From Saturnia japonica (Eukaryota > Arthropoda > Insecta > Lepidoptera > Saturniidae), in assembly GCA_033032175.1 (NCBI GenBank), contig CM065312.1, positions 5,642,001-5,706,000 of the forward strand: a DNA stretch of 64,000 nt, given 5' to 3'. The position numbers were made by a program, and so were the translations under genes. The notes under the pieces were generated by a model that made no database searches, was not told the DNA's origin, and worked only from the letters and a program-made list of their open reading frames with translations. Below, in pieces: positions 11,806-62,240 of the stretch (the stretch's first letter is position 1; every line of letters starts with the position of its first letter).

Positions 11806-11855
<50 letters not shown>

Positions 11856-35266: not shown

Positions 35267-35453
35267 ATGGAAGTGTCCAGGGTATTCTGTTGCCAGCGTG
35301 AGGTGTGTCCGGCGTCACAATGTCCGGAATCAAAGCACAGACCGTCCGGATGTGAACAATGTACCAGAACTAGATTAATTAGTCAATACAGTGACTGTGA
35401 TAGTGATGTTATGGATAAATCTCGCCTGTACAAATCGAGTGCAGCCAGAAGTA
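35267..35453 (+). CDS. Coding exon 1 of the cytokine-like gene (two candidate start codons)
   Basis: The exon ends at a GTAAGA donor (35454) after one base of a split codon (A|GA, Arg), which matches the phase of exon 2. Two in-frame ATGs have good context: 35267 (A at -3, G at +4) and 35411 (G at -3, G at +4). The frame is open further up to an ATG at 35045, preceded directly by TGA. I prefer 35411 because it puts a basic stretch (MDKSRLYKSSAARSR) in front of the hydrophobic core, as in a normal signal peptide. Starting at 35267 adds 48 residues with eight cysteines (including CPASQC and CEQC), which would bury the signal and make it a signal anchor. The region is CpG-rich compared with the flanking DNA. 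A first exon elsewhere in the 12.5-kb intron cannot be excluded. Confidence 0.6.
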
Positions 35454-38400
35454 GTAAGATATTTTATTTCATATTTTTAACTAATAACATAATTAGTACT
35501 AACTAATGTGCACAGTATATATATTAAATTTAAATCTGAGCAAAACGGTAATTTACATAAATAATGTAATATTTTACCTTGATAGGTTAACTAAGTTCTT
35601 TATCATTTCTTCTTGCATTTACATTTACAGGATGTGTAAACTAATCTGAAAAATAATACAAGAATAGGATAATGTAGACTTTTATTAGTTTACTTTATGT
35701 AAAACAGGGGAATGTAAAATAAATAATATTAAAAAAAGACTTTATGAAAAAACAGGTTTTATAAAACGTTTGTGTATATTTTATAAATCAACATAATATA
35801 ATTTAAAAATAAAATGTCACCATCGCCTTGTGATTTGTAATTTAGACATTGATCCTTTGATCAGTGTGAAGTAGTCCGAATGTTAAAATTTTATTGTCTG
35901 ACATAGAGGCAATTTACGAAATTTCAATTAAGAAAGTATTCAAATATTTTTCAATAAATTAATATATTAACACTTGCCTAAATATGAGAAAGTAGAAAAA
36001 AAAAACAAACGTACACGAGCGGATGTCATTCGAAATAAATAATATTGCCGTAATATAAATAAGAACAAGTGTAGTACCTAATATGTCACTTATCATAACA
36101 AAAGCTCAACGGTTATGTTATTTATAAGCGGTATCCGGTCCGTGTAAATAATCACAGCATAGTTCTCACGTCACAATCTCCGTGTCCGTCTGTCTGTTCC
36201 CGTGCTTACAGTTTCATTACGCGCAAAAACTTGTGTGTTTTATATGATGTCAAACACGACGGTCCAGAGCTAAACAACTTGGTTCAAAGTGTAATTAAAT
36301 TAATGTACTCTTACTGTGGTCGCATATCTGACTAAATATTTCTACACTTAAGGGCGGGAAGTTAAGATATTTTTTTTTTAATGCCAATAAAAACAAATCA
36401 TTCAGGTATTAGTAATTACAGTAAAAATATAGGTTTATAATCATGCGTCTTTATGAATTTTATTAATTGCGTATTGTTATCATTTACAAGAGTTTTTGAT
36501 AAGACAATATCAGTGAAAAAAAAATTAAGAACGTATCATTTTTATCACTTTAATTTTTTGTACTTTCGTCATCATAATTTTTTTCAACATTTTTAGTTTT
36601 TTTATTTAGTTTACATAAATATACAGAAATATCTCCTTATTTTTTTTTACATACTTACATTTTTTTACATTTTTTTTTACTCAATAATTAAATTAAGAAA
36701 TTTGAGCTTACAGTTTCACCTCAATTAAAGTAATAAAAAATAACAAAAAAAATAATAATACAATGTGCCAATGACATTATGAAAATGCCTTAAGCCGCGA
36801 GACACGTATCTCTCTAGTTTACACACATGGAGAGAATTATTTCGTAATTAGTATTATCGCTCCGTCTCGATCTATCTAGGGCTAAGAAATGATTTAAGAG
36901 TCGCTATGTAAAAACTTGGTACCCATTAGATCACTAACCGTGGTTAAAACTTTTCTTTTTTTTTTGCTCGAATATTTTCTTTGTCGCTTGTAATATGGGT
37001 AGAGGCAGTTTATTTTATTTAATACGTGACAGCGGGCATGTGAGAATTCTTGTTATATGCAATTAGCTGCTGTATTAAAGACATGGATCCGAATGCCTTG
37101 ATCATTCTCTTTTTATAAAAGAGCGTCACTATTGCTAAGTTTTAAAACCGTATTATTGAAAAAAATGATATAATAATGAATGAAATAACGCATAACGGTT
37201 TGCCTAAAAATGATTATTGAATTATTTGATTTTTTTAATTGGTAATTTAAGTGATTAAAACTGACTTTGTACACTGTAACAGAGCATTAATGAAAGAATT
37301 AAATATGAAATATTACTTTCTTTTTCTTGTAAGGTCGAAAGCTGGCGATCATTAAAAATATACCTATCAATGTTCAGACAGTGTTTTTGTAGATTGTCGA
37401 AGTACTGGCGTAAAATATAAAACCATGTAACTTATGTAGCCCTTAACGATAATTTGTAGCATTTTATAAAAGGTATTGTTATTTTGTATAAATGCTATAT
37501 TTTTACGCAATAAGTAATGTTAGTATATGGGGTAAGACCTTCTATAACCCGTATAGCTTGTATAATAATTACTATTTTAATACGTGAAGCAAAAACTTTT
37601 TACCCCTTTTTAAGCGTATTGCTTGCACAGAAGACTGAGATTTGGCATGGTTACAGATTATATGGAGTGCAGAAAGCTAAAATTTATCTATAATATCTTT
37701 TACTAATATATTCAATTAAATAAATTAATACTGCGAATCCTAACCAGACCAGTGCTATTGAACGTAGACCCTCCAAAATATTGACATTGTCACTCAATGA
37801 AAAGTGACAGTAAGTGATATAATATTCATTGTTTAGGTTCATACTGCAAATCTCAAACAGAAAATAATTTATGATTAAAATGTCGCTGGTCCAATTTAGA
37901 TCATTGGGCGACCGCTAGTAATTACTATTATGCATTGAAAATGCGCTAGCATCTCAGTTAATTGAAACATTTTTTATTCAAGGTAAAATATTTTTATGTC
38001 AAATAGTGTTAATTATTATATTAAATACTTCATTAAATTTTATTATAATTATTATCCGGAGATATTCAATAAAAGAAAGATTATTTTTTGCAATGTAATA
38101 AATAACAATTTATATTGAATTATCATTTCCGTATCGTAATATAAAAAAAAAATTAATAATCGCTTAATACATTATTTAATATTAAAACAAATTATTTACA
38201 GAATCATGATCTTATTTTAGCTGACTGGGTAAGCAAATATAACAATTACTCTGGTATTATCTGGTATAATCAACAATTCAAGCGTCAATTTCCGTTAATT
38301 AATAAATAATCATTTAAACTTGATTACGCCAGCGACGTAATATGAGGAAAACCGTCATTTATATAAGAAATTAGTGCATAATCAGTAGATTTTATATTTT

Positions 38401-41400
38401 TATCTTATTTTACTAGAATACTACGTCCTTATCGATGACTATATCAATGCTGAATTTACGTCATCAAATGACTAATTGATGCACACATGATCATTTTATG
38501 TAGGCACTAGGGTATTTCCAATTTCATAGGATCTTCTACAGTAAGTTTACGTATAATTTCCTGTATAAACAAATATATCATTTTAACTACCAACTAAGGT
38601 CGCTTCTTAATTCCACTAGGGAGCGCTACTAGAACGAATAGAACGCTAAGATAATATTCGCATATTACTAAAATTTTCTGTAGGCCTTTTGTTTAGACGA
38701 CCCGTATACTGAACTATGGCAAATTACTCGGTAGGAGTATCATCGTAAGGGTTCAGAAGCAGTGTAAGGCTTAACTCATAGCTATATGTGGCCTTCGTGG
38801 TTTTTCGCAAACATGAAATCCACATTGATTTTTTTTTTCTTACAGGAGCTTAAATAAAAAATATCCACGTATTATTTATTATTTTCAATTGTGTACATGA
38901 ATATGGAATATCACTAATTTAAGATAATTTTCAGTATACTCGTTTTTATATTAACACAAAAACTAAAAATAAAACTTACATGCATTGTTGTTTTAGATTA
39001 TTGATAATGATAGTAAATATATCATGCTTGATAATTGATTACGTTCACTTTAAATTTACTCACGAAAATTAAAATTATTAATATTTATGAAAACGATAAT
39101 GTTTTTTTTAATTGAGAACTCCCCTTTTTCGTTGTCTACAAAATGAAACACTTGTACGCCATCAATTGTAAAAAAATGTTCTAATTCAGAAAATCCCGAA
39201 AATCCATTGCATTCTGATGAATGGTTTAGGAACGCATACGGAACAAACAAACAGATATATTTATCTTTGAATGTCTAATAGCAGAATATTAATCTATTAT
39301 TGGTTTAATTTAGGTTTCAATCAATCGTAGTACATGCCTTGATATTATTGTATGTAACCCTACTAATATGATATTCGTAACTGCCAGCGACTTTGCAGAT
39401 AGAATAATTAAAAGCAATAATATATATAGGCTATGCGTCTCAGGGAGTACGTAGATTTCTATCGGTGAAAGAACTTCCAAAATTGTTATAGTAGTTTCAA
39501 AATATTTATAGAAGAATTACCGTAACGTATAAAAATAATTTGTATCCGACTTTTAAAAAAATCATGGGGAAGGGACATTACTGTGCAAGGTGAACAATCC
39601 TTTAATGACACTATGTCACCTTTATACCTACAGGCAGGCGGCGAGTATATTATTTTGTAATTTGTTCAACCGCACTGGTTTATCGTGACAATTAAATAAC
39701 AATTAACATTTTCATGTGCAAATATTAGTAAATATTTTATTTTAATAAATTAATAACTTTAATGTTTGATTTGAAAATGGTTTTGTGTATTATAGGTTTT
39801 CAATATCTAATTTCATTATTTTTATTAATAATAGCTTTCACAGTAGGTAATTATTAAAACTGTTGCTTATTATCAAGTACAAGCGTAGCTATAACTTTTA
39901 CATGGTGAGGGGTGGTTCCTGAAATACACATAAGTAAAAGCGATTTTGACAATGACTTCAAACAATAAAAAGCAGTTATAAACGCTAATAAAATCAATTA
40001 TTTGAAAATTACAGTTTACTTATATAGTAAGCTAATGATGTACTGCGGTTCCGCGTGCGCTTATTACGTAGTAATTATTTTCGACTCGTAATTTTATTTG
40101 TACTCATATTAACGACAATTTTCGTAGCCCGTCAATTTAAGTAGTTTTCCCAAGTTTTTACGATTTCTAAAAAAAATATTGAAAATTCTTATAGCCTATT
40201 AATTGAGGAATGAGATAAGCTTTCTGTGTATAAAATTTAATAATAATCGATCAAGTAATTTTTGAGTTAAATCTGGAGCTACAGACAGACAGACAGACAG
40301 ACAATTTAATGTCATATTCGTGATTAATGTTTTTTATATATGGATGTCTATCAGGAAATCAGGGAAAAAATACATGTACAGACAGAACTACGGTTGTATT
40401 AGCCTTTCAGCTTAGACTATAGAGTTCGGGGACCACTAAAACAACTCCCTATACGACCATGTTTTCAAGTAGAGACGTAAAAATTATGTTTGAATCTAGT
40501 ATCAGTTTAATTTCATGCCGAAGTCATTGCGCTGATTAGTTAAATTTGAATTGGTTAAAGCAAGGAGTATAAATATCCTTTTAAGCTAGTAATATCTGAC
40601 GCAGGACGCACTTGATCGCTTACGTCATAAAAGAATGAACGTTGCAGCGAGACTAAATCCAGGAATCGGGAGTTAGTCAGGACTTTAATTAACGTAAAAT
40701 GCACTAGTGTGAAGTAGTAATGTCATTCATGGGTATGACTAAATGAAGATGTTATTTAATAAGTCAATTCAATCGTACCAGAGTACATCCCGTAATATTA
40801 TAATTGGCGTCACTGTTTTGATGCGAATCAAAGTAATATATCTAAAGTATCTGTATTATTTTGAATCACATTTTATGAAAAATTGAACTACTAAATTAAT
40901 TTCTTTAAATGAGAATTTGGTAAATTAAATTAAAGCGTTGTGTTCAAAATACTTCAAAGAAAACTACTCAAGAATCTTTATAATTATTTTCTTTACATAG
41001 GAAGGAAAGAAAGCAATGTCACAGCAATTAAAACAATGTTAGTACAACTTAGCTCGATTTCATAAACTATTTCCAAGCCATTAACGCCGCGATCCACATG
41101 CTCATTAACAACATTTTCACATAAAATGTTGTTCGTTTACGAGGCAAAAAGCTTCTACAATTACCAACAGTTATTTCAGTAAAGACAAGACTCATAATTG
41201 CAGTGTTTAGCTATCACCCGTTTAGCGCTATATGTCGATCCCTGTTTAGAACGAATTACTCGTTTTATTCCCTAAAAATAAACATTTTAGAAGTAACAAG
41301 ACTTTTTTGGTTTTTACCAAAATTAATTAAAGAAATATTCGTACTCGTTTTACGAAGTCCGTTATACGTGCGACGATATTATCATTTAAAGTGACTTTCA

Positions 41401-44400
41401 GTTAATGCAAGTGGTAACAACGCGTGCCTTGTGATATCAACCGCCACGCGCCTCTCCTTCAGATGATTGTACTTATTATACGCAGTCAAATTTTACGACC
41501 GCATCGGTTGTTAGCTCGCTACCAACAAAAATAATCGTTTCATATTAAAAAACAGTTAACGCTTCACTTGATTCCTCTATGTCACTTTGACAGTATCGGT
41601 TAATATAAAACGTAATTTATAATTCGGGACGTCCCTTTTATATTGTGTTTTTAAATATTAACAAAAAAAGTGCCGAGATCCTTAAAAGATAAGGACGTCA
41701 ATAATTTGGCCGGTATTCCGGTAACGAGTCGAGCACAACTCTCGGCATATTTTTTAACGTATTTATAACAATCATAATCAAAATTTACATAATTATTGCG
41801 CGGGCGCTTGCGTCGTCCGGCGTTCCGGTCGTAGTGCCGCGGAACTTTTCTCGGTTTTCGAGCCGTAATTCTAGTTAGTCGACGCGCGATTTCTTTTTAA
41901 AAAGGTTAACAAGATGGTCTCGTTTGGTTCTTTTTCCGTGCCGCGAAGCCTTCTTTTGTGAACGGGCGAGCTGTTAAAAAATAAACGAACTCATTGTTTC
42001 TCGGGTAGTCAGTCCGACCTCCGACGCGGTCCCTGCTTTTTTTATGCCCCCTTATAACCTGTGTATTACCTACGTGTAGGTATCTACGGTTTTTATAGTC
42101 GCCCGGTCAGTTCTTCAATGGGCTAAGGAATCCGATCGAGTCTCATTATATATCTCAAATATCTCCACGTCTATACTGTGGTTACAAGGAGTATAGCAAT
42201 TAAGTATTTGTTGTCTTTTTAAAACACACACAAATTATTGCAATTAATATTGTGTAAGTGTTATTAAAACTTTGTATAAAGTTTAAAAAACTGGTAGGCT
42301 CTCGTTAATACAAATAAAATGTAACCGATCGCATGTGTGACATTTCTTTTTAAAAATATATATGAGAATATCTTAATTAATGAAATTATCTAGATATTTA
42401 TAGTTGTCTCAACTTTGTTTTCTTTTTGGAATGATTCGATGATTCCATAATTTTTTAAATATTATCTCAACATGATCTCGGAGAAAATATATATTTTACA
42501 GTGACTCCACGTCTTTTATGAGCTGACCTGTTATGTTATATCTTTTTTTTTTAAATGAACTTTTGACGGCGCGGTCTCGCGTTTGCTTTTGGCCGGCGCA
42601 CTAATAAAATGTTATGATCGTATGTTTAACGCGTGTTGTGTTGTGTCGGTCCTTCCTTTTGACATGATCGTTATTGCCCCTTTGCGGTCTTTTGTACCTC
42701 CAATAGCAACAACATTATTATAGTGTCAATTAGAGGGCAATATAAACTGAATCACGGCTAGTTAAAGCTTCGATACTTTTTTGTTTATGCAAATCGTGTG
42801 ATCGTGCTGTGAGACGCTAGCATATAGGCATCTCTTTCTTTCTAAAATAAGGGGGCGGTTATCGGGATTTCACAAACCCTAGTTAAATAATAAGCGGCGA
42901 AGCGCCCTATAACTATAATTTTCTTTTATTTGACCGCGCCGAAGTGCCTCCGGGCTCTGGAGCGAAATCGACGCAAAACACTAACGAGATGTTGGGAAAA
43001 AAATTAAACGCACACATTATGGCTTACATCGTGCGAGTGTATTGATGAATTTGACTTTGGATACAAATATAATCTCTTCTTGACCGTTCTCACACGTAAA
43101 ACGTATTATTTTTTATAATAAAACATTTTGCATGACGTAGTGCAAGAGTCTTCCATGTTAGTCACATTCAGACATAAATACCTGATTCATAAAAATAGTG
43201 CAAACACGTCTTCTAGTCAAAACAGTTGAAAAATGCTTTCTATCTGAGTAATGAGAAATAATTTTTATGTTATCGTAAAAATAGAGATATTTTTTATAAA
43301 TTGGGAATTGAAGATTTTGGACACTCGTTCTGTATATATATATATATATATATTTTGATCAAAAATGTCACCTGATTTTAAGTGACGTATGTAGCGGAAA
43401 ACAGTAACTGGTTTAACCAAGAGCAACTGCCTCTCAAGTGCAGTTATCGTAACATACCAATAGGTGGTTGGCGATAGATTTTCAACTTGAGAGTGGTTGC
43501 TAGCCAGGCGAGTATTAGAAAACCCCCTACCACCATGATATAGTTTTGTAACGCTGTTTACCTTCACCGAAAGCTCAGGCTCATTGTGAAATTCAATCCT
43601 ACGTCAATCGACATAGTGTCTGAATACTCTGCCCACACATACTGAACCATCATCGCTTCATAGATGATTGTATTAAAGTCACTATTACGCAGGTATGTGG
43701 AGCAGCTAGAGAATTAAAGCTTCAGCAAAATAAGATCGAGCTACATCGAACCTTATATACACTAGAATTTCCAATTCCGGTGAAGTTGTGAAAGCCTTCT
43801 GAGGCTTTAATGTATATAAGGATAGCAGTCAGATCTAAAAAAATATATTTGATTATTAAAAAAAAAATTGTCGTTGCGCCCCTTCGAAAGCCTAGCTATA
43901 AACAGGCTACCCTAGTTGAGCAGTAAAAATTTCGGAATACAAATATAATCATTATTATAAAATTTTGAAGTACAGTGTACAGAAAAGTAAATACTATACT
44001 ATAATATTTGTTTGTTTGAACGTCCTAAACGCTGGAATTTTAATTTTGTATTTCATAGCCTATTTATTGTAGAGTATTCTAGGTCATATAATTTCACGCT
44101 ACAACCCTAAGGAACGGAGCAGTAACAATTAACAATAAGTGATCTGTCAAGCTGTAGGAACTGAAGTGAAAACAACGATAGGCTAAACGGGTGCGAAAAA
44201 AAATTAACACGAGTGAAACCGCGCCACACAGCTAGTAAAGGTATAAAATAATAATACTGGCAGTACGAATATGGCCTGCTGGTGAATGAATGAAAAAAAT
44301 TAATGTGGTTTCATATAACTATTATTTTCCATATAAGCCCTAAAGTATAATAATATCCTTCTTTAAACGACTAACAATAAGAACATTTATTATTTATTTA

Positions 44401-47400
44401 TTGCAAATTAAATACATTGTTTGGGTCAACGAAGACAGGTGTTGTAACTACAAAGCATCTTGTTAATAATCTAAAAAAAAATTGATGTCAATCACACATC
44501 AAATTAATATTACTTTTTAAAGTAAATTTATTCAGTTACAATGAGTTTACGAAGAAACTTCCATAAATATAGCGACATCAGTGACAAAGCGACTGTGACG
44601 TCCTGACAGTTGCGGGAAAGAGTTATTATTATTGTAATTAAAGTGGCTTCTATTCATATATTTATTAGTACTTAGGAGACGCAGACACTACGCAGGCGGT
44701 ACTAAATTATTCAAATAGTACTGTCAAGTAAAAAATTTTAGTCATTAGATACCATTCAGTTATGTTAATACGAGACCCTACTAAGGGTAAACAAAAATAA
44801 AATGCGCAATAATCAGGCAGGACTCAATGTCGTTATATATTATCAAATACATAAATATGGAAATGCGAAGTGCATACACTACGGGTTACGTTTAAAGAAT
44901 ATAAAGGCGAGCTGATACGATTAAAATAATGCTATATTATATTATAATTTAAACTGTTCTCGAGCACTGTTTCAAGAATGGACCATGCCGTTTATACGTA
45001 TGTATTGGTGGTGCCCCGCGACAACTGACATCCTACATCGCGATATAGAAATTAACCGAACAATTGAGTATATATATCAGAACCCGACAGAGGAGCCTCC
45101 CTTCTCAGTGGTTACCCATACGTTCAATTATTTTCACCTCCTAATTTCATTTATTCTCATATTAATGACAATTTTTATAGCCTATCAATTGAGGCCACGC
45201 GAACCAGAACGGCCTATTTGCTTTTTTCAATAAATTGACTTATTAACATATTCATAATATAAAAATATGCTTTTACATGCTCAATAATTGAAACAATGAC
45301 AAAAACTTCCCGCGTACAAAATTTAATAATAATCGGTCAAGTTAATTTTGAGTTAAATACATACGTACAAACAGACAAAAAAATTTAATAGCATACTCGT
45401 GATCGGTGTCCTTTATATGGGTTTATCTTTAAGGAAATCTGGATTTGAATTTAGACATTTTATCAGCTTAATACCTATGACAGTCGTGTCCAACATGAAA
45501 AACGATTTTATTGTGGTAAGTATATTCCAATAAATCAATGTTTTTTTTTTAATTATTACTAGCTGTACACCACGGTTTCACTCAAATATATTTCACCAAC
45601 TAATTCTCGATCACACCGCGTAACGTAGATAAATTACTCGTGTAGCCTATCGTTGCTCTTGAGCTTGCCAGGTTACATGACGTTCATAGTTATTGCTCCA
45701 CTACTTAAACCCCTAGCGTGAAGTTACGTAGCCTAATAACCTTGCTCAATATATATGTTATAAAATAGAAAAAAATATTTTCTCAAATCTGACTCGTAAT
45801 TTCAGAGATAAGTGTGTTTAACTATAAAAAAAAAAAAAACAATGTCTGGAGCTTTATTATATTTAATATTGATAAAACTGGTTGGTGGCAAGTCGTCAAA
45901 ACATGTTCGATCTGATTACGCAAGGACGATGCCGCAACGTAGTAATCGATATAAGAATGTAACGCGTAACGTCTACAGTCTACACAGCAGCACCACAAAA
46001 GTGGCACACTGTGATTCACACAAGTTCAGTGCACAATTAGCAAAGGCTGTCCACCTCTGGGGCGCGATGTATTTATTCATCGGATGTCCAACGATTACCA
46101 TAATCGATAGCATCGCGCGCGCCGCATACCGAACAACCTCTCGAACGTTTTCATTGAATGAGATGCAAGGGAAAAAAAACGTGTGCTTTCGTCAATCAGA
46201 GATTATTTGAATACTTCTTATTACGTCACGTTTTGCATACTTCACTCTATTACCAGTCTAAGTTTTTACTCACCTGTTTACATAATTTCCAACTCTGTTA
46301 ATATATAATATAATATTTGCGATATATTCTCTAATAAAATAACTAAGCTCAAAAGAACAACATTGATATACCTATCTGTCTTCTATCGTCTAAAATTTTC
46401 AATAATATAATTTGTTTATTTATTTATAAAGGTTCGTCTAAAATTGCTTACACTATAATATTACAATAAAATAATGTGACGTATGGACTATGCTAAATGT
46501 AACAATTTCTTACAGGCAAACACCGCATGAATATTTTGTGTTACGACTTTATTAGTTTAGATACATTATACACACTCCCAACAAATAGAAACCAAGATGG
46601 AAATCAGTAAAAAAAACTATTATACAGTACCCTTTACAAGTTTGTAGACCGCTCGAATAGATGCATCATTAGATTTATTTGAAATGTAAAAAAATAAATA
46701 ATATCAGAAAGTAAGTGCCCGACTGCTGGGCAAGGGCCTCTTTCTTCAGTGTATTCGCATCTGACTATAGTATATATCAAAAAATAAAAATAGGTACTTT
46801 GTTTAATTGAGAACCTAAGAAGGCACTAATTTTCGGTTCGGAAAACATCCCGGTTATCGAGAAGAGCCGGAAGGAAGCTCATTCGGCAAAAACATGAATG
46901 AATATATAAATATCATCATTTTGCGTAAGCTTACCTTAACACAATACTTTACAACACTATATAGTTAAACTTATCAAAAAAAAAAAAAAACATACTTTTT
47001 GATCATTAACAAAAAAAGATATATATTTTGAAACAAAAATATTAGTTTACTATTATACTAAACTTGTATTCTTAAATTTTTTGATATACTTACCTAAGAA
47101 GTATCAAACTACAAAGAAAATTTATAGAAGTGTGGATTTTTTGGCGTTTGAAATTATTGTCAATACGTCATGGGTTTACGTGGTGAATAAGCTCATACTT
47201 TTTTTTGTGAAGAGGCTTTTGCCTCGCAGAGAGACCAACTTTTAAATCTACGAGTTTAGTTGAAACAATTAGTATAAATCATTTAGTCAGGCAGAGCTAT
47301 AAGGAGCTTTTGTATTTTGTATTTTTTTTTTACTTTGCATTAGATATAAGAGGTTAATAAAATTGTTTATACTATATACATACGCACGTACGAAGTCTTT

Positions 47401-50400
47401 GGCGTAACAAAACTAAAATAGCTCCAAAAATACTACATCTCGTCAACAACATGATGAAGTTAATGATATTAAAGTAATGTTTATATAAAACATAACATAA
47501 CATAAGCCTGTATCCCCGAAGAGTTAGGTGTAGGTGTACTAATTAATGTACACCCACAGTTCGCCAGGTATGTAGGTATGTTTTTGGTCCCATCGGGCAC
47601 AAAGGCAAACTTCAAGCTGCTACTGAGAATTTCATAGAAAAACCCAATATCTCTTTGCTCGACCTGGGAATCGAACCTAGGACCTCAAGCATAACAGTCG
47701 CGCTTAGAACCACTTGGCGAGTGAGGCAGTTACAACGTTAAATTTTTTTTATACAATTAAAAAGTTATTAAAATGTCTTCACAATATTCACACTCACACA
47801 CAAACACACACGCATACACGCGATACGTGCATAGCTCTCAATTTTCTCCTCAACTAAACGCCCCAAAAGTTGTACTTTCAATAATATTAAATTTTATATT
47901 GTATCTCAACAGGATACGTCAACATCTGTGCGGCAGTTTGTTTGCTTCTGTTGGTTGGCAGCCTTCCTTCGCAGTCTTCAGCGGCACCTCGTAGAACCCG
48001 TGCAGCCATGGAGCGTCAGCGACGTCAAGCCAACTCAGAAAATTCTCTTTGGGGGAATCCTTGTGATTATGAATCCGTGAGTCCTTATAATGATTATTAT
48101 CTATACTAATGTTGCAAAGCTCAAAAATTTGTTGCACTGATCGTTTGAACGCGCTAATTTAAACATCAGTCAGATTTGAATAACTCTGTTTGTGTTTATA
48201 GCCTATTTATTGAGAAGGTAATATGCAAGATCACGCTACGGCACTTTAGGAGTGGAGCAGTAACGATCACGTATACACGGGCTAAGTTTCGGCAAGTCTA
48301 CGTTCTATATGTGCCTAATTTACGTGTTAGTGAATGATTTTAGTTAGGCCAGCTCAGTTCCTCCAAGAAGTCCACTAGTCGGTTGATGTTGTTGAATACT
48401 TCCGGTTGGGTCCTCGGTGTACCAAGGTTTTTGACCGGATATCGAGCCAGCTTTTTGCATTTCACGTCCCTTTTCCATGCACGTTTGGCGTATAGGACTT
48501 TCAGTGACAACTAAATTTAAAAGATGTTTCTGTAATGTCCATGTTCTATTAAGGCTTCGGTGACCATTCGCCTTTGGCATCTGGTTAAGCGTAAAATGGC
48601 CTTAGAGATTTTGGCATTGCCACAGGGTAGTAATTTCCTTTATTGTCTGCAGTAACGACAAAGTACTGTAAAAGTACGCGAAGTGAGAACAGACATAGGC
48701 ATAGGTTAGGCATAGACATAGGTTGCGTTGATGGCGCCGCAGTGGAGAGTTGGTCGAATAAATTTAACACGGGTGAAACCGTAGGGCACAGCTAGTCATA
48801 TAAAACTAGCCTGATAGTGGCTCTACCACAGGGTAAAGACCTCCTCCTGAGGGAAGGCATACGCTTAATCAGTAAGCCTATAACGTATTGTCGAGTAACA
48901 CCATAGGATCTATATTTTCTACTGTATATGTGTTACTATAGGTTTTTTTCGATGTGTTTATTTCCTTCAACGTCATTCAAGAATTCACTAATTTATATTA
49001 AATGAATTTGCACTAGTTTTCAATTATTCATTCGTTGTTGATCAAAAAAATGACCCTGTTAGAAAAAAACGTGGAATGAATGCACTGATTCCAAGCTCAT
49101 GTTTTTTTTAATTCTCCCTAATAATGAACAACTTTGAATCAAATTAATTAATGAAATATATTTTAAATTAACTGAGTGCTGATGTTCTATGCTATTTATT
49201 TAAACTTTCCACAACTTCTGATAGTTTGTGTAGTTAAGTTGATATATTATTTCATTACGTATATTCGTATAGTGCTTGCATTGCTGAATAGAAGTAAAAT
49301 GATAATTCAATTAAAAGTTTATTCAACAAATAATAATTAATAAAAAAAACATAACATTTTTACTTAGGCATTCCAAGTATTAAAACTTTTAGTATATTTA
49401 TTTATATGTTTAGAGTTATGGCGCCAATCTCCCACTTTTATAATAGCACAACACATTAACGGTGCCCTTGATAGTAAACATAGCACAGTCCAAACACAAC
49501 GGCGACCACCAAGAAACCTAAATCCATCGGCAGTCGCCGCTTTCATGCCAGCCTGCATAAATATCTCTTCATTTTACGCTTAAAGAACCCGATGTCGTAA
49601 GAAGGAGGGAACACATTGCCCGAGAGAAGGTTCCAAGGTTTCACGCTACGACAAAGATAAGTCATAGAGAACTTTTTAGTTCGTGCCGAAATGGAGGTTA
49701 ACGTAAAACTGTAACTCCGAAGCCCAGAGCAGCCCACACCTCATGTCACATGACAGTGGCCCAAATGGTAGCACGTTGAGCCTACTGGGGGAAGTGGCTC
49801 TCAAATGCAGTTGCCGGAACATACTTATAGGTGCCAGGCGAGAGATTTTCAACATGATGATGGTTGCGAGCGAGGCGGGTATTTAAAATACCCTACCTTA
49901 ATGTTGAAGATTCATCACGATGTTTTCCCTCACCGAAAGCTCGAGCTTATTGTAAGGATTCGTTTGGAGCATTGTCTGTAAATGCTACCATTGCTTCAAA
50001 TTTGCTTATATCTAACATCATCAATTATTTTCCAGCCAAATACGGCCAACGTGCCCGATCCTAAAGATATCGCGCCCAAACTCATCGCGCAAGCGAAAAA
50101 CGCTATCACATCTACGGCTAAATACAAGGATGCATTCGTAAGTACTTTATATTATTACATATTCGAAGGCCTCTCTTCGCTTTCATTCATCGATAAAGGC
50201 TTGCCTCAGTATAAATCAAACAGTATGACACTTCCTTATAACATTATTAATTCAAGACTTACACAATACATAAATTTCAATGTTGTCCAGATAGTCTTTG
50301 AAGGTAATGATTGATAAAAGAATATTTAATTTCTATTTAACGTAGAACTTCAACAGAAATGTTTTACTAAAAGAAATTGAGATTATATATAATAGTCAGA

Positions 50401-53400
50401 TAAAAAGATTTCACAATTATTTAGCAGATCTGTATAAACAGATAAAATTCTTCCATATTTCTATTCACTAGATAAAACCTTAATAACATTGTCATATTAT
50501 ACTCATACTGCTATTAATTTGGTCATAAATTTCGTCTTTTAGAGTTTTTTTAAAGTTTACTAAGTTCAGTATTAGTCCTGCGTATATGGTCCATAATAAT
50601 AATTACAAATTATTTATTGCAATTAAAATACGTTTGTAACAAACTATTGTTTATTATTAAAACTGTTAAAGCGCTTTGTTTCGGTGGTAACATCAATACT
50701 CGAAGTTTAATATACTTAACATATTCTGACTTATCATTATATTACAAAATTATATTGAATTTTTATTCCTGTAAGTTGTGTCACTGTTCACTTGTTACAC
50801 GGTGGCGATATGACAAGACGATCGCGTAGTATTTGCGGTCGCATCTGTATGCCCGCCGCGTTATTTTAAATGAACGGACGGAGCTCGCTGCCGGCCAATA
50901 CCAATAAAACTTAAGCTAACGTCGACGCATGCCTTCGCCGCTTCATTTGCACGGTGATATTATTGATTTATTAAAGAGAGCCTGTACTTTTCCAACGCGA
51001 ATGACCAAGACGTAAGCGCCTATTAGGATGTCCTGTGAAACGTTTTAGTTGGTCGTTAAACTTTGATACTGATCGAATTCCTCTTCCAATATTGAAATAT
51101 ATTTTATCATTACATTTCATTCATATTAATGTTGAAAGCAACGCAAATTGGTCTCTATTTATAAGCATGTTTCAATTCACAAATAATCTCAGTACATATA
51201 GTTACTTGGTTTTAAATGATATTATCAATCATGTCAATATTCTGGGGTTGTGATAGGATTTTGATCTGTTATGTTCTTGTTTTTATTTTATTTTATAAGT
51301 GGCCCTATATTATCATACTGTCGGTGGTATTAAACGTGATAGTTTGGTTATTGTGCACAAGCGAAGTGAATTCTAAAAAATAATAATTAGAAGCATAAAT
51401 TGTAAGTTACTCTAAAAACTCTCTGGGGCACCATTATGTTAAAACATTGCTTGAACTCTGTAGATATGAAAAAAAAAATGTACTGGAGATTGGCATAATT
51501 ACCATTATATAAAAAAAAATATGAAAGTCTTTTTACATACATAAACGTAGGTACATTGTCTGTACTAGGCTATAGAAAAATAATTAGCTTGCTACTCATA
51601 ATCATTGTAATTATATAGTCTTAATATTTTACAAAAATACTGTACTGTACTGTTTCTTCTGTTATTACATAAGTTCTTGATAAGTAATGTTAGAGAAACT
51701 GTCTAGAACAAGTTAGATTTTATTTCTTACAATAGAGTTTCACAGAAATGTTGAATGATTAAATATTCAGAAGGTGTACGTTTTTGGTGCGGTTTTCTCA
51801 CCGGCCGCAGCCGCGACAGTGAGCTTGGTTGTTTAACGCGCGCCGTTGCATTGAGATTGCATCGCTGCGCAGGCGCCGCGCCGGTTTTGCCTCCAAACGT
51901 CCGGTCGGCGCTTCCTCCCTTTTTAATTGTTTTTGCACTGTAGTTATTATACGTTACGCAATCACAGTGTTAAGTCGGTTAAATAATACTTATTCTCTTT
52001 CATGTTTTATGTGATAGCTACATTGTTTTTTTTTAATTTCTTTAAAGGACATTAATATGAATCGAGAAAATAAAGACATGAATATCGAATAATCGAGAAT
52101 ATGAAGGTAAATGATAAAATGTATAAAGACAAGGAAAATCGTAATCAAGATACAAAAGCTACAAATATAACAGTTTTGCTATTTACGAATTACATTCTTA
52201 TAAATATGGGAACACAATGTTAAATATGGTGACACAATTTCGCACACGGCCATTTAATTCTAAACTAAGCAAAGCTTGTATTATGGTAACTAAACAGCTG
52301 ATATACATACATATATATATATTTAACATCCAGACACATAACTGACAATAATTATGCTCATCACACATAAGTCCGTCATGGGCGAGGATCGAACATGCGA
52401 CCTCTTGGTTCAGTAGTAGGGCTTAATACTAATGGGCCACGAGACCTGTCAAATAATGAAAATTTAAATTAAATATGGCTATATAATATATATAATAAGA
52501 ACAGTTATCGGAATTACTATTTATGTGATATTAATCAATGATTAATTGTAAAGGACGAATTGATTAATTCTCAATGTGAACAAGGATATAAAATATAATA
52601 ATTTTCATGATACGTATTTAAGGAAATATCAATATACATTCTAGTATAAATGCGACATAGTTTCACGGTCACCCAAGAATCGCAGACACCTCAACCTACA
52701 TTCTGGAATTCATAAAACATTCACGAATTTATTAGAAACAAACGTTTGGCATGTTAAACAACGATTCATATGACGTTTCTATCATTCCAGTCCTAGGAAT
52801 ATAATAATTTCCGAATCGGAAGTAAGGTGGGCCGATCAACGAGAAATAATGCGATGTCGATGTCGCGCCTCGAATCATTTATGGACTTCTCTCTACCACT
52901 GCACGTTCGAACGATGCCAGGTCTATACGCTCAGCGAATACATTTCGGTGATTGTATTGATGTAATCGATTTATCGGGTGTGCAGCAGTCAATGGTAGCG
53001 AAACAATGGATGAGTTTATATCTGTATTGTCCAGTTATTGTGGACAATGTTCGCGCATGAGGTATGGTAGCATTGTAATAGGCTCGACGGTCGTAACGAC
53101 GGCGACGTCCTGTCCGCTGCCTCCTCGTAAAACGACATTATCGACTCACAGTAGCCGGAACGAGGTACAGGACGGTGCGCGTACGCTTCGAATACTGATT
53201 GCGCATTAGTATTGCGCGACACACCTGCCCGATGATTTTTTTTCTGTCTCTCCCCTTAATGTCGGTCATTCGGTACTAATGTATCATATTCATTGCGATT
53301 TAGCCACGGCTCGATGGCGATGAACCGTGATTTGTCGCCGTTACAAGGACGTTTACGCCTTCTTTGTTTAACTAGTCGATTTTAACTAGACGACCGTCGT

Positions 53401-56400
53401 ACTAAATTTATTAGTCATAGTCGAGTTAAGCGTCTCGAGTTTAAATATAAAAAAATATGTCTTAATAATTCAACGAGAATAAATCAGAAGTTCACATCTG
53501 TCGTGGAGACCATTCCGTATAAATAATAACTGGCCGCGTGGTACTAAGAACGCAATAACAAATTCAACGAACTTTACCGGTACTGTGTGACTCGCCACAG
53601 GCCACCGTGTGAATGTGTCATAACACTCATGCTTTTGACAACACCGGTGTCATATTATCGCATCGCATTTTCGAACGTCGGAATTCTGCTGGCTTCCTTA
53701 AAAATGTCGCCGTGTACTTTTAAACGTAATTACGATAAACGAACCGGCCGATTCGGTCCTGTAATCCGATCGGGTAGCGTGATCGGGTCTCGTTCGTATA
53801 CGGTGAGTCGATACTAAGAGACGGTGCGCATCAGCGTAGCTTATGCAATATCGCTATGTAAACATTGAATTACATAGTATTACATATATGTACGTACATA
53901 GTACGATAGCGTTGTTCACACGGGCGACATGCTGTCTGCTGCGTTGGGTGTGTACGTGTTCCGTAAATATACCAGCGAGCTGCGTATGTGTGGGTGCATG
54001 TTTATTTGATAAGCTTCCGATGTTTCGAGCTAGGCACTCGGATGCTAAGTCGTCGAATTTCTCAGTCGATCGCCCACCCACCGGCTCTTTGAATGTAGAT
54101 GATATCGTTGCTATCAATCGTGGTGATCGGAAAGTATTCCCGTAATGTTAAATATAATTAAAATTATATTAAACAAAAACAATCTAATTTTTATTTGAAG
54201 TTTTTAATTTAGGAAGCCTAAAATTCAATGAATCAAATCTTGTATGTAAATTTTATTAATTTTTACGACTCAGTTTAGATATCATTTAATGATACAATAA
54301 AATTTGAATACAGATACAGCTTTTGCTATGTATGCTATACTATAACTGTTGCTAATATGAATTGTTATTGCTCGTATGTAGTGTGGTTAGCGTTTCGGAT
54401 ATGGCATGATGGACCGGACGCGCACCTGTGTATTTGTTATACCAATGGGTACATCACTACGAGTTCATGACGCATTCCATCTCTGAACTATTTGATTACA
54501 TATATAAATATCATGTTTATACATTCTTTGTGATATGTTGATCTCAACGTTAGGTCAATCATAGATAATGTTTCGTATATATTAATAGGGGTAAATGAGG
54601 AATTTCAGAGAACATAGTGATATAGGAAAAAAAAAACAATGACTCTTATTAATTTATTAAAGTTTGTTTTTTTTATTTTCATTGGTTTACTGTTTATGGT
54701 CAGAGTAATATTATAGGCAAGTAGTTTCATATAAACTTACAATTAAAAGTTATAATATTTATAACTTGCAAATTATACACTGAAACGTTATTAACATAGA
54801 TTCCTTGTCATCCTTTTTTAATGAAAATGTCAACTTAAATTATGTAACACGTAGTTGCAGATAATTATTTGTACTGGACTGGACACGATGAAAACAATAA
54901 TCTAAGTAGATACCTAACATTGTGTACACTGTATAAAGTATAACATTTTACAATATTTGCTTTTTTAATAGCCTAATAGTTTTTTTTTAAATCTAATTAG
55001 ATAACTCTTCTACTTCCAAATCTCGTTTTAACTCACTCGATTTAAAAAAAAAAAATTAGCTATACATTCATTTACCAGCGATCGTCCTAAGGTCGAAATT
55101 CGACTAGTGACTTTTTGATCATACACTATTTTCTGTTTGACATTTGCAGTATTCATGAACCTAAAAATAAGTATTATCTAAATCACTAGCTATCACTTTC
55201 CGTTGAGTGACAATGTCAATATTTTGGGGGGTCTAAGTTCGATGGCTAAGTTCATAAGCGATAGTTAATATAATTTTGCAAGAATGAAGGCGTCCCGTCT
55301 GGGTTATTAATATTCAATACCACCACAATTTAAGCATAATCATAACTTAAGATCTGCTTATAGCAACCGAATGTAAAAGCATGTACAAAGAATATCGTTT
55401 CGAACTTTTAACTTACCTCGTGTATTGAATTAAATTTAGATTTCAATAATATTTTGTGTCACTCAAACCCCGTGAATTATTTTAATATCCGCCGATCAAC
55501 TTTGAATTCGGTATTTAAGAATCCTTATTGAAAATTTGCAAGTTTGTCCAGTTATCCCGTATCAGATTATGTACAAAATACTAATCGTAAATTCACTTTA
55601 TTACACCTATTATCAGCGCAGTTTGCGTTAACCGGTATCTCAATTCCGATCGGACAAATTAATTTTTGTCGACGCTTTTGAAATTTTCAATCGGTTTGTG
55701 AATATTGCAGAGATCGTATCGCTAAGTAGATAACGTTATTGCACAATGCAATATTATTTTCGAGGGTTTCACGTCTCGTATAATTGTAACCGCACTTCAT
55801 CAATCGAATTGTTAGTGGACAATATTTACTACAATAGCGATTGCTCATATTTGTTACATCTGCCGTCGAACTTGCGCAGTTAAAGGTTTTTGAACTTTGC
55901 CTTGGTGATACAGAGTTGGTTTTTGGTTTGTCGCAACCTGTCACGTATGCTCTGGCGGTAGCGTCAAATTTTAATGTCGAAACGGTTTTGTTACGTGCCA
56001 TGTCGCCGACAAACCTCCGGTCGCGATCTCATCTTTCACGCGTCCTTCATCACTGACGAATAGAAATAGAAGTTACAGATAGATAAATAGAATATGCATG
56101 TAAATAAATATAATTTACATTCGGTTTAATGACTCTTTTTAATCTAGCAGCCATTAAGAACATATTAAATGAGTAGATTATGGCTAGAAAGCACTTAATC
56201 TAATATATTCGTAGATCAAATAGTATTAATGCGATTTGCGTTTTATTTTTCCAATAGACCTAAATTATTCTGCAATAAATTTTATGGGATTAGAAATATA
56301 ATAAAAATAAAATAAATTAAGTTTTGTCTTTATAAACAAAGTACTAGGAAATTATTTAATATGATTTAGCATAATTTCTTTATTGTGGACTAGAAACATA

Positions 56401-58240
56401 GATACATATATGACATTACCAATAAATACAACGTAATAAGTGAATTCAAGAAACTAAAGTATCGACGTGGATTTCCTTCATTATTTCTTTTCCATGAAAG
56501 CTAGTTATTGACATGTGTCTACTACATTATCTTATATTACTGTTTACTATTATCTTTCATAGAATTCACCAGTGTAGGTGGCAATGATTGGAAATAATTA
56601 CAGCATATTTCTTTAACATTAATTATCTTGCAAACAACTAATATTTTTTTTATTAATTAAGCAAAATATTTTGTACAACATATCTTTAATATGTTCATTT
56701 CTTTTGTTGCAGGCTCAGAAACTACATAGTTATGATAGTTTTGACGATCTCATCAGTACATGGGATGGCAATGAATGGCTACGCAAATTTAATCTCCCCG
56801 AACAAGTACTACCTAAAGAGAAGGTGCTTTATAAAGACGTGCCAAATGAATATTTAGATAAATTGATGGTAAGTTACTAAAACACACCTTGTTTTTTAAT
56901 CAAAGTAAAAATTATTCTCTTTAAATTTGACATCTCTTACTTGATGGAGTGTATTAAGAACAAGACCGAAAAGGATTTGTTGATGAAAAGCATGAATTTA
57001 AACTATTAAAATATAGGTGTGTGTCACGACATTTTTGCAGAGACTTGTTCAGACCAAGGCAAGATTTAGGTACCTAACTAATGTGGCTTAGTAGTGCTAT
57101 CTCATCAGCGACTCTCTTGATTTGGTTCTAGAAAGAATAGGGTACAATGAGGCTGATATATTCGATAGAATAAAAGTCCAAAAAAAAACTTATAATGAAT
57201 CTGTTTTTGAAGATGCGATTTTTAACTGAATAAACCATTGTGTCGAATATATATACAATTAGTATTCAAGATGAACGACTTTATCTTTTTAAAGCCGTTT
57301 TAATTCAACGACACGAACGTTGCCAGATCGACGTTTCCTAAATGAAAACAATCATCGAAGGGCGGCGAATTCGCTGATGCCAAAAACGTGCATCCGTATG
57401 AGTTTTTCAATCGATTTCAAAGAATCAACATCGTCGGTGGCACTCATTGTTGTCGTCCGACTATCGCTTACGTGAGAACACAATGGTTTCGTAATTTGAT
57501 TGATGTTATAATCGCGAATGTTACCAACCGATTCAGGATAATAATCTTATATTTTAAATTTGTACTATCTTTTCTTACTTTATTCGAAGATACACCATGT
57601 TTGTCGTGATAATATTCTCACTGAACATTTCAGTACTTATAAACAACTTTTTATCATATTATTTGTTCAAATGTTGACGTAATATTAAAGTACATAAGCA
57701 AAGAATCTGCTTATTTAGATATCTGTATTCTTTTCAGCCGGACATCGATAAAGTGTTGCCGTCAATGTATAAGGCTTTGAAATTGATCGTCGCCGGTCTA
57801 TATGGCTTCTCCAATGAAGGCCTCAATGACAATATAATTGCCGATGAAAGCCTGAGGGACAGTATAAACAACACCATGCATGACGTGAGAGCGGTTCTAT
57901 GTCACTTCAATGTGAGTATTTTAATTTGGTATACATATGATAACTAAATTGTTATTATTTTTCTATACCTACTTTATTATATTCGTTGCCTACTTTAGTC
58001 CCATAATCAAAATTTCTATCAAACACAAATATTTTCTAAATATTTATATTATATAAATTATTATTATTTGTATCTTTGCAGAACATAATGAAGGGACGCA
58101 AACTTGAGATATTGCCGCTACCGGATTCAGAGGCTCCTGAGTTTACGCCGGACAATATGCTGACCAAAGGGCTTCTTCTCTACAGAGATACGCTGAACTA
58201 CTTGGAGTACTTAGTACAAGTCTTTCAAAAGCTTTACTAA
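35411..58240 (+). CDS. Secreted four-helix cytokine-like protein (six-exon gene, span of coding exons)
   Basis: Joining 35411-35453, 47913-48076, 50036-50137, 56713-56868, 57738-57911 and 58082-58240 gives an open frame of 265 residues. Seen: a basic n-region (1-15); a hydrophobic core (19-30, ICAAVCLLLLVG) with likely signal cleavage after A38; basic pro-region with RQRR at 49-52; Cys65 and Cys210 as the only cysteines after the signal peptide; an NNT sequon at N199. Helix-prone amphipathic stretches lie at about 78-103 (A), 157-179 (B), 191-220 (C) and 239-265 (D), with a long A-B loop encoded by exon 4. Known of the family: long-chain class I cytokines are roughly 200-residue secreted four-helix bundles whose exons are mostly separated by phase-0 introns. 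Inferred: a ligand of the insect Domeless/JAK/STAT type (Unpaired-like), acting outside the cell. I did not recognise the primary sequence with certainty. Other possibilities are another helical hormone or a lineage-specific secreted factor. The gene model is strong; the family call is moderate. Confidence 0.75.
37758..37920 (+). mobile_element. Small non-coding element, copy 1 of an inverted pair (intron 1)
   Basis: Its sequence runs in parallel with the reverse complement of 55072-55246. Shared: CCAAAATATTGACATTGTCA, GTTCAT, CAAACAGAAAATA and CGA(C/T)CGCT at the end. About 160 bp, no coding capacity; probably a MITE. Confidence 0.6.
40050..40420 (+). mobile_element. Interspersed element with (ACAG)n tract, related to 45130-45450 and 29960-30180
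   Basis: Shared strings include AATTTAATAATAATCG(A/G)TC, TTTTTGAGTTAAAT, TCGTGAT(T/C)(A/G)(A/G)TGT and ACATGTACAGA. The ACAG tract is at 40281-40303. There are three copies in the window, all in the same orientation. Confidence 0.45.
41440..42980. promoter_or_regulatory. CpG-rich non-repetitive block in intron 1
   Basis: Clusters such as GCGCGGGCGCTTGCGTCGTC (41798 on), CCGACCTCCGACGCGGTCCC and GACGGCGCGGTCTCGCG stand out from the AT-rich flanks and match no repeat in the window. No convincing exon was found. It could be an enhancer or an alternative promoter region of the host gene. Confidence 0.25.
43355..43685 (-). mobile_element. SINE family 2 copy (intron 1)
   Basis: GTCACCTGATTTTAAGTGAC, then CAGTTATCGTAACATACC and TTACCTTCACCGAAAGCTCA on the + strand. 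It follows a (TA)n tract at 43332-43352. Confidence 0.55.
43765..43850 (+). mobile_element. LINE-tail unit, diverged (intron 1)
   Basis: CCAATTCCGGTGAAGTTGTG … GGATAGCAGTCAGATCTAAA. Same start point as the others, more mutated, in the sense direction of the host gene. Confidence 0.5.
43980..44236 (+). mobile_element. Helitron-like element copy (intron 1)
   Basis: GTTTGTTTGAACGTCCTAAA, a body with CAACCCTAAGGAACGGAGCA, and the end GTGAAACCGCGCCACACAGC then TAGTA. Confidence 0.5.
45130..45450 (+). mobile_element. Second copy of the 40050-40420 element
   Basis: ATTTATTCTCATATTAATGA and CAAAATTTAATAATAATCGG match the 40-kb copy. The 82-codon ORF at 44985-45233 runs into it, so it is not a real gene. 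Confidence 0.45.
45555..45760 (-). mobile_element. Helitron-like element copy (intron 1)
   Basis: ACTAGCTGTACACCACGGTT, then body AGTTATTGCTCCACTACTTA, which is the reverse complement of the 44.1-kb copy's body. Confidence 0.45.
45842..46210 (+). CDS. Orphan 122-codon ORF in intron 1 (uncertain)
   Basis: From an ATG right after an A tract (45828-45840), it encodes MSGALLYLILIKLVGGKSS, which is signal-peptide-like, and then a basic region with five cysteines, ending at 46208-46210. The upstream edge is a repeat, while the ORF body is CpG-rich and unlike any repeat here. No family recognised. The length alone is weak evidence. Confidence 0.15.
   Translation: MSGALLYLILIKLVGGKSSKHVRSDYARTMPQRSNRYKNVTRNVYSLHSSTTKVAHCDSHKFSAQLAKAVHLWGAMYLFIGCPTITIIDSIARAAYRTTSRTFSLNEMQGKKNVCFRQSEII
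46690..46900 (+). mobile_element. LINE/RTE-type 3' fragment (tentative)
   Basis: AGTGCCCGACTGCTGGGCAA followed by GGGCCTCTTTC is a string common in lepidopteran LINE 3' regions, and CATCCCGGTTATCGAGAAG follows. No coding part. The identification is from memory of such repeats. Confidence 0.3.
47491..47735 (-). mobile_element. tRNA-derived SINE (family 1), intron 1
   Basis: On the + strand it starts with CATAACATAACATAAG (the tail), includes CCTGTATCCCCGAAGAGTTA, and ends with the head. The B box complement GGAATCGAACC is at 47667-47677 and the A box complement is near 47710-47724. Antisense to the host gene, about 180 bp before exon 2. Confidence 0.7.
47913..48076 (+). CDS. Coding exon 2: signal-peptide core, pro-region and RQRR site
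   Basis: The acceptor is CTCAACAG (to 47912) and the donor is GTGAGT (48077). The frame is GA plus 54 codons. Upstream of the acceptor this frame hits TAA codons at 47882 and 47888 with no ATG between, so the exon needs a spliced-in start. It encodes YVNICAAVCLLLLVGS, then PSQSSA|AP (likely signal-peptidase site), a basic pro-segment (APRRTRA), RQRR, and the start of the mature protein with LWGNPCDYES. Cleavage at RQRR would leave an N-terminal Gln. Base composition is clearly more GC-rich than the introns. Confidence 0.8.
48098..48797 (+). mobile_element. Helitron-like element copy (intron 2)
   Basis: It starts TATACTAATGTTGCAAAGCT and ends CACGGGTGAAACCGTAGGGC then ACAGCTAGT. The internal short ORFs on the - strand are not conserved protein. 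Confidence 0.5.
49400..49740 (-). pseudogene. LINE 3' fragment with end of RT (- strand)
   Basis: The - strand reads FSMTYLCRSVKPWNLL, then GNVFPPSYDIGFFKRKMKRY, which is the familiar '…RSV.LWN.LP..VFP.SYDIG.FKR' C-terminus of CR1/Jockey-like LINEs. Its 3'UTR (GGTTTAGGTTTCTTGGTGG side) continues to about 49400. It lies inside intron 2 of the cytokine-like gene, opposite to the gene. Confidence 0.6.
49750..50002 (-). mobile_element. SINE family 2 copy abutting exon 3
   Basis: On the + strand, CAGTTGCCGGAACATACTTA, then ATCACGATGTTTTCCCTCAC and CGAAAGCTCGAGCTTATTGT. It ends in CTACCATTGCTTCAAA at about 50000, 36 bp before the first base of exon 3. Confidence 0.6.
50036..50137 (+). CDS. Coding exon 3: predicted helix A
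   Basis: The acceptor is ATTATTTTCCAG and the donor is GTAAGT (50138). It is exactly 34 codons, phase 0 at both ends. After PNTANVPDP it reads as an amphipathic helix (DIAPKLIAQAKNAI then STAKYKDAF). A SINE copy in antisense orientation ends only about 35 bp upstream, so part of the branch-point and pyrimidine region may be SINE-derived. If skipped, the reading frame would be kept. Confidence 0.8.
51780..51935. promoter_or_regulatory. Short CpG-dense block in intron 3
   Basis: CTGCGCAGGCGCCGCGCCGG and ACCGGCCGCAGCCGCGAC within 150 bp. CTGCGCAGGCGC is close to an NRF-1-type site. The two short ORFs here overlap each other and are probably not coding. Confidence 0.25.
52310..52448 (-). mobile_element. 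tRNA-derived SINE fragment (another family)
   Basis: On the - strand, TGGCCCATTAGTATTAAGCC resembles a tRNA D-arm/A-box region and GTTCGATCC is a good B box, followed by CTCGCCCATGACGGACTTAT. It lacks an acceptor stem, so it is not a tRNA gene. Confidence 0.45.
52800..54130. promoter_or_regulatory. CpG-rich block in intron 3 with one exon-like segment
   Basis: Dense CG across 1.3 kb, unlike its flanks, with many short open frames on both strands. An exon-like stretch ends at a GTGAGT (53803) in phase 0, from an ATG at 53629 (58 codons starting MLLTTPVSYYRIAFSNVGIL). That phase would fit coding exon 4. It could be an alternative 5' exon or just unmethylated regulatory DNA. Confidence 0.25.
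55072..55246 (-). mobile_element. Small non-coding element, copy 2 of the inverted pair (intron 3)
   Basis: On the + strand it reads CAGCGATCGTCCTAAGGTCG … GTGACAATGTCAATATTTTG. It is the opposite-strand partner of 37758-37920, in the same gene. Confidence 0.6.
55600..56060. promoter_or_regulatory. CpG-richer block in intron 3 with a 104-codon - strand ORF
   Basis: The - strand frame 55687-56001 starts MARNKTVSTLKFDATARAYV in good context (G at -3, G at +4) and has seven cysteines. I do not recognise it. A separate consensus - strand donor (CGAG|GTAAGT, exon end 55417) lies 270 bp downstream. Either an antisense transcript or conserved regulatory DNA. Confidence 0.2.
56713..56868 (+). CDS. 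Coding exon 4: predicted A-B loop
   Basis: The acceptor is CTTTTGTTGCAG and the donor is GTAAGT (56869). It is 52 codons, phase 0 at both ends. The residues are hydrophilic with aromatic anchors (YDSFDDLISTWDGNEWL) and then a proline-containing stretch (NLPEQVLPKEKVLYKDVP). This fits a long crossover loop between helices A and B rather than a core helix. The assignment to a loop is inferred from composition and position only. Confidence 0.85.
56869..57737 (+). other. Intron 4 (869 bp)
   Basis: GTAAGT to TTTTCAG. It contains a somewhat CpG-richer stretch at about 57290-57540 with no clear exon or repeat match elsewhere in the window. Nothing else was seen. Confidence 0.6.
57738..57911 (+). 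CDS. Coding exon 5: predicted helices B and C
   Basis: The acceptor is CTTTTCAG and the donor is GTGAGT (57912). It is 58 codons, phase 0 at both ends. PDIDKVLPSMYKALKLIVAG is a strong amphipathic helix (B). After a GFSNEGLN turn, ESLRDSINNTMHDVRAVLCHF begins helix C, which continues into exon 6. It carries the single N-glycosylation sequon (NNT) and the second mature cysteine (C210), which could pair with C65 ahead of helix A. Confidence 0.88.
58082..58240 (+). CDS. Coding exon 6: end of helix C, C-D loop, helix D, stop
   Basis: The acceptor is TATCTTTGCAG and the preceding intron is only 170 bp. It has 52 codons plus TAA at 58238-58240. It encodes the end of helix C (NIMKGRKLEI), an acidic and proline-rich C-D loop (LPDSEAPEFTPD) and a C-terminal amphipathic helix (LLLYRDTLNYLEYLVQVF, ending QKLY). 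The protein ends directly at helix D, as many long-chain cytokines do. Confidence 0.88.
   Translation, partial: NIMKGRKLEILPLPDSEAPEFTPDNMLTKGLLLYRDTLNYLEYLVQVFQKLY

Positions 58241-62165: not shown

Positions 62166-62240
<75 letters not shown>
62100..62240 (+). mobile_element. Tiny LINE-tail insertion with 71-nt poly(A) and target-site duplication
   Basis: The body starts CCAAGTCCGGTGAAGCTG and ends GTAGTCAGTTCT before an A tract at 62170-62240. CATTCTTTTA occurs directly before it (62090-62099) and directly after the A tract (62241-62250). The body is about 70 nt, and the long unbroken A tract suggests a young insertion. Confidence 0.85.

Follow-up and report, generated by a model that had tools for sequence, protein, structure and literature searches.

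A lepidopteran gene with the predicted fold and gene plan of a long-chain class I cytokine

Introduction

Several arthropods are reported to have JAK/STAT receptors, kinases and STATs yet no recognised Unpaired (Upd) ligand. In the accessible portions of the reports concerned, the honey bee pathway is assigned a 'currently unrecognized ligand' (PMC1847501), soft scales (PMC11084805) and Varroa (PMC12027997) are described as lacking a recognisable Unpaired, and papers on Ostrinia furnacalis (PMC3895045) and the silkworm (PMC11447326) name Domeless, Hopscotch and STAT but give no Upd ligand, the term 'upd' being absent from both. Whether a gene of Saturnia japonica could encode such a ligand is the question raised by a stretch of 64,000 nucleotides (GenBank assembly GCA_033032175.1, contig CM065312.1, positions 5,642,001 to 5,706,000; hereafter the window), in which an earlier note, made from the sequence alone, had placed a six-exon gene for a secreted, probably four-helix cytokine-like protein.

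We find that this gene is conserved across Lepidoptera, and the best explanation of its features, to which we give a probability of about three in four, is that its product is a secreted helical cytokine of the long-chain class I type, acting through the receptor Domeless. The hydrophobic leader would direct the pro-protein into the endoplasmic reticulum and the secretory pathway, furin would cleave after RQRR to leave a mature protein of about 213 residues with one disulfide joining its N-terminal cysteine to helix C, and the mature protein would bind the gp130-like Domeless and activate Hopscotch/JAK and STAT, as fly Unpaired does. With a conserved, structurally convincing candidate in the silkworm and other Lepidoptera the ligand question becomes directly testable in existing cell lines, and other such ligands may be sought by fold and intron partition instead of sequence.

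Results

Gene model and orthologues

Six exons on the forward strand, at 35411–35453, 47913–48076, 50036–50137, 56713–56868, 57738–57911 and 58082–58240, span 22.8 kb of the window, have GT..AG borders throughout, and join into an open frame of 265 residues with intron phases 1, 0, 0, 0 and 0. The product is 98% identical to one database protein (P0001) across 83% of the query, corresponding to exons 2–6, and 67% identical to a Bombyx protein (P0002) across 100% of the query; because of these matches the exon set is not attributable to chance, and the six exons with agreeing phases of the earlier note are borne out. Its start codon, ATG 35411, is in need of correction, being absent from the aligned relatives. 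The exon 1 donor is backed by P0046, whose frame equals that of P0002 through ..STARS and thereafter diverges into other sequence.

Three relatives (P0001, P0010 and P0032) have their exons already joined on contigs far below 22.8 kb, of 1,527, 1,311 and at longest 2,160 nucleotides respectively, the last holding a longer form of the protein. The P0001 contig cannot accommodate the introns and is therefore taken to be a transcript, and we infer the same for the other two. We give next to no weight to a modelling artefact or pseudogene, for which one could cite the non-conserved ATG 35411 and the lack of a located first exon for a shorter form in the window, since the frame is intact, the borders are consensus-like, the contigs just described are of cDNA size, and the conserved orthologues, on sequence comparison, already contradict it.

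A protein database search gave 42 proteins at E ≤1 among 866 candidates, and two profile searches with a cut-off of E 10 yielded 42 of 7,993 candidates scored and 38 of 5,600, for a total of 49 identifiers; profile candidates had to share five-residue words, and the first of these searches scored the 7,993 best candidates only. Relatives in other Lepidoptera, for which such a profile search had been suggested, are widespread: every match listed with a species name is lepidopteran, and together they cover 37 species, from tortricids and gelechiids through butterflies, noctuoids and bombycoids. Bombyx mori LOC101739051 and the other uncharacterized Lepidoptera proteins are orthologues, with 38–67% identity among species-named members; among the matches listed the named entries are called 'uncharacterized', 'hypothetical' or 'unnamed', and none has a functional name in the part of the name shown. 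Outside Lepidoptera no match with a species name was seen in the two profile searches, within the reach of their five-residue-word filter. The term LOC101739051 was not found in the open-access papers searched, and the accessible parts of that literature yielded neither a lepidopteran Unpaired nor a function for these orthologues.

A tree of 43 rows, comprising the window protein and 42 of the 49 identifiers (P0036, P0039, P0042 and P0046–P0049 were excluded, being alternative models or fragments), broadly tracks lepidopteran groups, with the window protein adjoining P0001 and close to Bombyx and Manduca, a placement that points to a bombycoid. Leptidea, Choristoneura and Leguminivora each have two proteins, by inspection isoforms or alternative gene models. 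No paralogues were seen in the protein listings, and judged from these listings alone the gene appears to be single-copy; flies, in comparison, have three upd genes.

The predicted fold is that of a long-chain class I cytokine

The AlphaFold2 model of the protein is confident, with a predicted local distance difference test score (pLDDT) of 88.8 and a predicted template modelling score of 0.88, and forms a four-helix bundle in which helices A, B, C and D have 20, 36, 30 and 26 residues, the A–B and C–D links are long and the B–C link is short. All four helices proposed from the sequence are therefore present in the model. Had the prediction confidently shown some architecture other than up-up-down-down, it would have contradicted the earlier proposal; it shows a four-helix bundle instead. 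The up-up-down-down topology is deduced from the structural matches. VIA-align listed 50 structural matches, every one a long-chain class I cytokine. CNTF and IL-11 match best, the alignments to these two and to prolactin cover nearly the whole length, and IL-27, G-CSF and CLCF1 also appear among the matches listed. CNTF and IL-11 are gp130-family ligands. Erythropoietin and leptin are not among the matches listed, which excludes neither. The bundle and its matches together support the proposal of a secreted four-helix cytokine-like ligand.

Structural alignments with the vertebrate long-chain class I cytokines (the IL-6/CNTF/IL-11/LIF group, prolactin, G-CSF and IL-27 p28) give 8–15% identity, and there is no meaningful sequence-level match to them. 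In Pfam the window protein and the first alignment row had one match each, far under the curated cut-off; across 40 rows the best E value was 0.0089 and the commonest family appeared in 3 rows, while the best hits to PDB sequences were at E 0.79 by sequence search and E 0.13 by profile search, and we read all of these as chance. A search for viral homologues in IMG/VR gave 91 stretches fitting the pattern and 0 confirmed, and the top Foldseek match among viral structures, a fish herpesvirus IL-10 homologue, was not meaningful at E 0.75.

Helices B and D carry invariant charged residues, D113, K124, R202 and D203 (P0001 numbering), whose retention suggests that they serve a preserved surface of interaction or form salt bridges in the core.

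Introns partition the gene as in cytokines

Mapped on the model, phase-0 introns follow residues 57, 109 and 167, within 6, 7 and 5 codons of helix borders. Exon 3 (50036–50137, forward strand, phase 0 on both sides) encodes helix A, exon 4 (56713–56868, forward strand, phase 0) the A–B crossover loop, which contains short helices, together with the opening 8 residues of helix B, exon 5 (57738–57911, forward strand, phase 0) most of helices B and C, and exon 6 (58082–58240, forward strand) the final 5 residues of helix C, the C–D crossover loop, helix D with a conserved YRDT motif, and the stop codon TAA; these assignments combine frame, alignment and model. The rule of intron partition in class I cytokines is taken from the accessible part of PMC12327624. 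Four randomly placed introns would fit equally well with a probability of 0.007, or of about 1e-4 to 4e-4 if all four must also be in phase 0, figures that are a rough guide only as the 7-codon tolerance was chosen after the data were seen. The gene has two more introns, one in phase 0 following residue 23 and the other, in phase 1, in the leader region.

The partition is of cytokine type, and gene architecture is a line of evidence for cytokine membership separate from the fold. The gene differs from those of the vertebrate long-chain cytokines in the extra phase-0 intron, which lies between the pre-A segment and helix A, and in having a furin-type pro-site and an isoform with a long N-terminal tail. 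In predicted fold and gene plan it has what characterises long-chain class I cytokines, and we consider a class I cytokine fold with a secreted signalling role very probable.

Leader, processing and cysteines

Exon 2 (47913–48076, forward strand, ending in phase 0) was defined by frame and alignment and holds the leader, a furin-type site, and the segment ahead of helix A with the first mature cysteine. The leader YVNICAAVCLLLLVGSLPSQSSAAP (47915–47989, forward strand) has a KD19 hydrophobicity of 1.91 and ends in the signal-peptidase-like SSA|AP, and the protein is probably secreted; this fits the secreted pro-protein that had been proposed, with a signal anchor as a possible alternative to a signal peptide.

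Conservation of the leader is very strong. In a 23-row alignment its 27 columns have a mean pairwise identity of 0.87, against 0.44–0.64 for the mature segments, the reverse of expectation: signal peptides are normally freer to change than the protein that they deliver. Possible sources of the constraint are a membrane-anchor role, a role in targeting of a long form, or a constraint at the RNA level. A leader so much better conserved than the putative receptor-binding body is also what might be pointed to if the protein were a secreted four-helix protein whose receptor signalling had been lost or had never existed, such as a carrier, an antagonist or a ligand of a non-class-I receptor, and a common fold does not prove function. 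We nevertheless regard this as quite unlikely, given the near full-length matches, with long-chain cytokines as the only entries listed, the intron partition, and the charged positions kept unchanged in helices B and D.

The furin-type site RQRR (48014–48025, forward strand), identified by sequence and conservation, lies 8 residues past the leader end. The furin-type site of the earlier proposal is thus present, and R-x-K/R-R stands between the leader and an NPC motif in 39 of 45 proteins (P0001–P0045); two (Tuta and Phthorimaea) have R-x-x-R only, two (Danaus and Euphydryas) have neither motif, and two, P0024 and P0037, were unscorable. P0013, P0015, P0041 and P0045 represent these four species, of which Danaus and Euphydryas have no R-x-x-R whatever past the leader and the gelechiids Tuta and Phthorimaea retain that looser form, so that cleavage by furin may have weakened or disappeared in them.

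The two mature cysteines that had been noticed are both conserved. The first, in the NPC motif ahead of helix A (48062–48064, forward strand), is present in 38 of 40 rows and missing only from P0037, a fragment, and P0024, apparently a faulty model; the second, close to the end of helix C (57900–57902, forward strand), is present in 40 of 40. They are probable disulfide partners. From the NPC motif onward 41 of 45 proteins have exactly two cysteines (three in P0009, one in P0036, and two proteins unscorable). Spatzle cytokines have a cystine knot with several conserved disulfides; with two mature cysteines and a mostly helical model, a protein of that type was set aside. A sequon, NNT, lies in helix C (57867–57875, forward strand) and is found at that place in 28 of 40 rows, and the mature protein is probably N-glycosylated in most species.

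Long and short forms

The exon 1 frame is open upstream of 35411 and contains in-frame ATGs at 35045, 35171, 35195, 35267 and 35411. Since conservation of the protein among relatives reaches back to the position of 35195 (MDxxxIP..GTVIVRxK-MEV..CEQCxRTR..SDCDSD), a long form of 337 residues, with about 87 ahead of the leader, most likely starts at ATG 35195. Its coding part of exon 1 (35195–35453, forward strand), which includes ATG 35411, ends with the donor GTAAGA in phase 1, as placed by the open frame, conservation, and the exon border seen when P0046/P0047 are compared with P0002 and the window. The tail is conserved (mean pairwise identity 0.54 in the 23-row alignment) and cysteine-rich (CEQCxRTR..SDCDSD). 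A folded tail is unsupported, with pLDDT below 50 across residues 1–96 of the Bombyx long-form model; the Bombyx tail has no Pfam match, and the tail is probably disordered.

Other records, several titled 'isoform X2', open with a different short exon (MVSxx..SGYVN..). In 37 leader-bearing rows, counting the window, the leader is preceded by more than 50 residues in 24, by fewer than 30 in 12 and by 35 in one. Script scans of the window for the short-form first exon gave poor candidates only; MVSFG at 41914–41926 is not proposed, as its donor fits 4 of 9 consensus positions. Within intron 1, positions 41780–42060 have a GC content of 0.48 against 0.32 for the intron, with the richest 280 nucleotides beginning at 41798. 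This stretch might act as a second promoter, driving the short form.

The two forms might differ in delivery, the long form being a pro-cytokine that sits in the membrane as a type II protein, its cysteine-rich tail in the cytosol, until furin releases it, and the short form being soluble. This is compatible with a secreted cytokine acting through Domeless, and the preponderance of long tails, their conservation as protein, the leader KD19 of about 1.9 and the nearby furin-type site fit it; the hydrophobic core, however, looks short and ends in a signal-peptidase-like motif, and R-x-K/R-R is missing in four species, and we regard it as a possibility that we do not favour.

Domeless is the likely receptor

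We consider Domeless the likely receptor. It is termed a distant gp130 homologue in the accessible text of PMC7378365, and general background comes from available parts of an aphid paper (PMC13409945), a fish cytokine review (PMC4929537) and an eel leptin receptor paper (PMC4422726). The chief rival receptor is CRLF3, the other class I receptor of insects, of which the protein could be a class I ligand instead. CRLF3 is an orphan class I receptor and, in the part of PMC8063046 available, erythropoietin activates insect CRLF3 and neurons are protected via JAK/STAT; the predicted fold suits class I receptors generally. We think this unlikely, as gp130/LIFR-type ligands (CNTF, IL-11 and CLCF1) and prolactin head the list of structural matches, and as the same text reports that locust haemolymph protected beetle neurons via CRLF3, from which its authors infer a ligand conserved across insects, whereas orthologues of the window gene were found in Lepidoptera only, in searches of limited sensitivity.

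Drosophila Upd1–3 are secreted helical cytokines of an insect, as the window protein probably is; in the accessible parts of the reports, Upd3 is mainly alpha-helical by circular dichroism (PMC7378365) and Upd2 is modelled as a leptin-like four-helix bundle (PMC5385356). Database and profile searches, limited by the five-residue-word filter, found no sequence link to them. On this evidence we withhold the Unpaired label, although searches of this kind lack the sensitivity at such divergence to argue against a link; the protein may act as Unpaired does. A further comparison is shrimp MjCC-CL, a secreted C-type lectin whose helical coiled-coil segment reportedly binds and activates Domeless, according to the accessible text of PMC5645147; the window protein differs in having no lectin domain in Pfam scans.

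More tentatively, the gene could be the missing JAK/STAT cytokine of Lepidoptera, directly descended from a four-helix ancestor of insects and vertebrates and delivered as a short secreted and a long, furin-released membrane-tethered form, the latter with the conserved cysteine-rich tail in the cytosol and the hyperconserved leader. Descent from a common four-helix cytokine ancestor is suggested because the gene keeps the fold of the long-chain cytokines as well as the intron partition of the vertebrate ones; if homology with the vertebrate cytokines holds via intron positions, it bears on a class I ligand predating the insect/vertebrate split.

Other features of the window

An open frame of 173 residues at 13748–14269 (forward strand) resembles by eye the C-terminal part of a non-LTR (long terminal repeat) retrotransposon reverse transcriptase, with no Pfam support. 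Unbroken homopolymer runs of 71 A (62170–62240) and 48 T (11807–11854) are possibly tails of retroposed elements.
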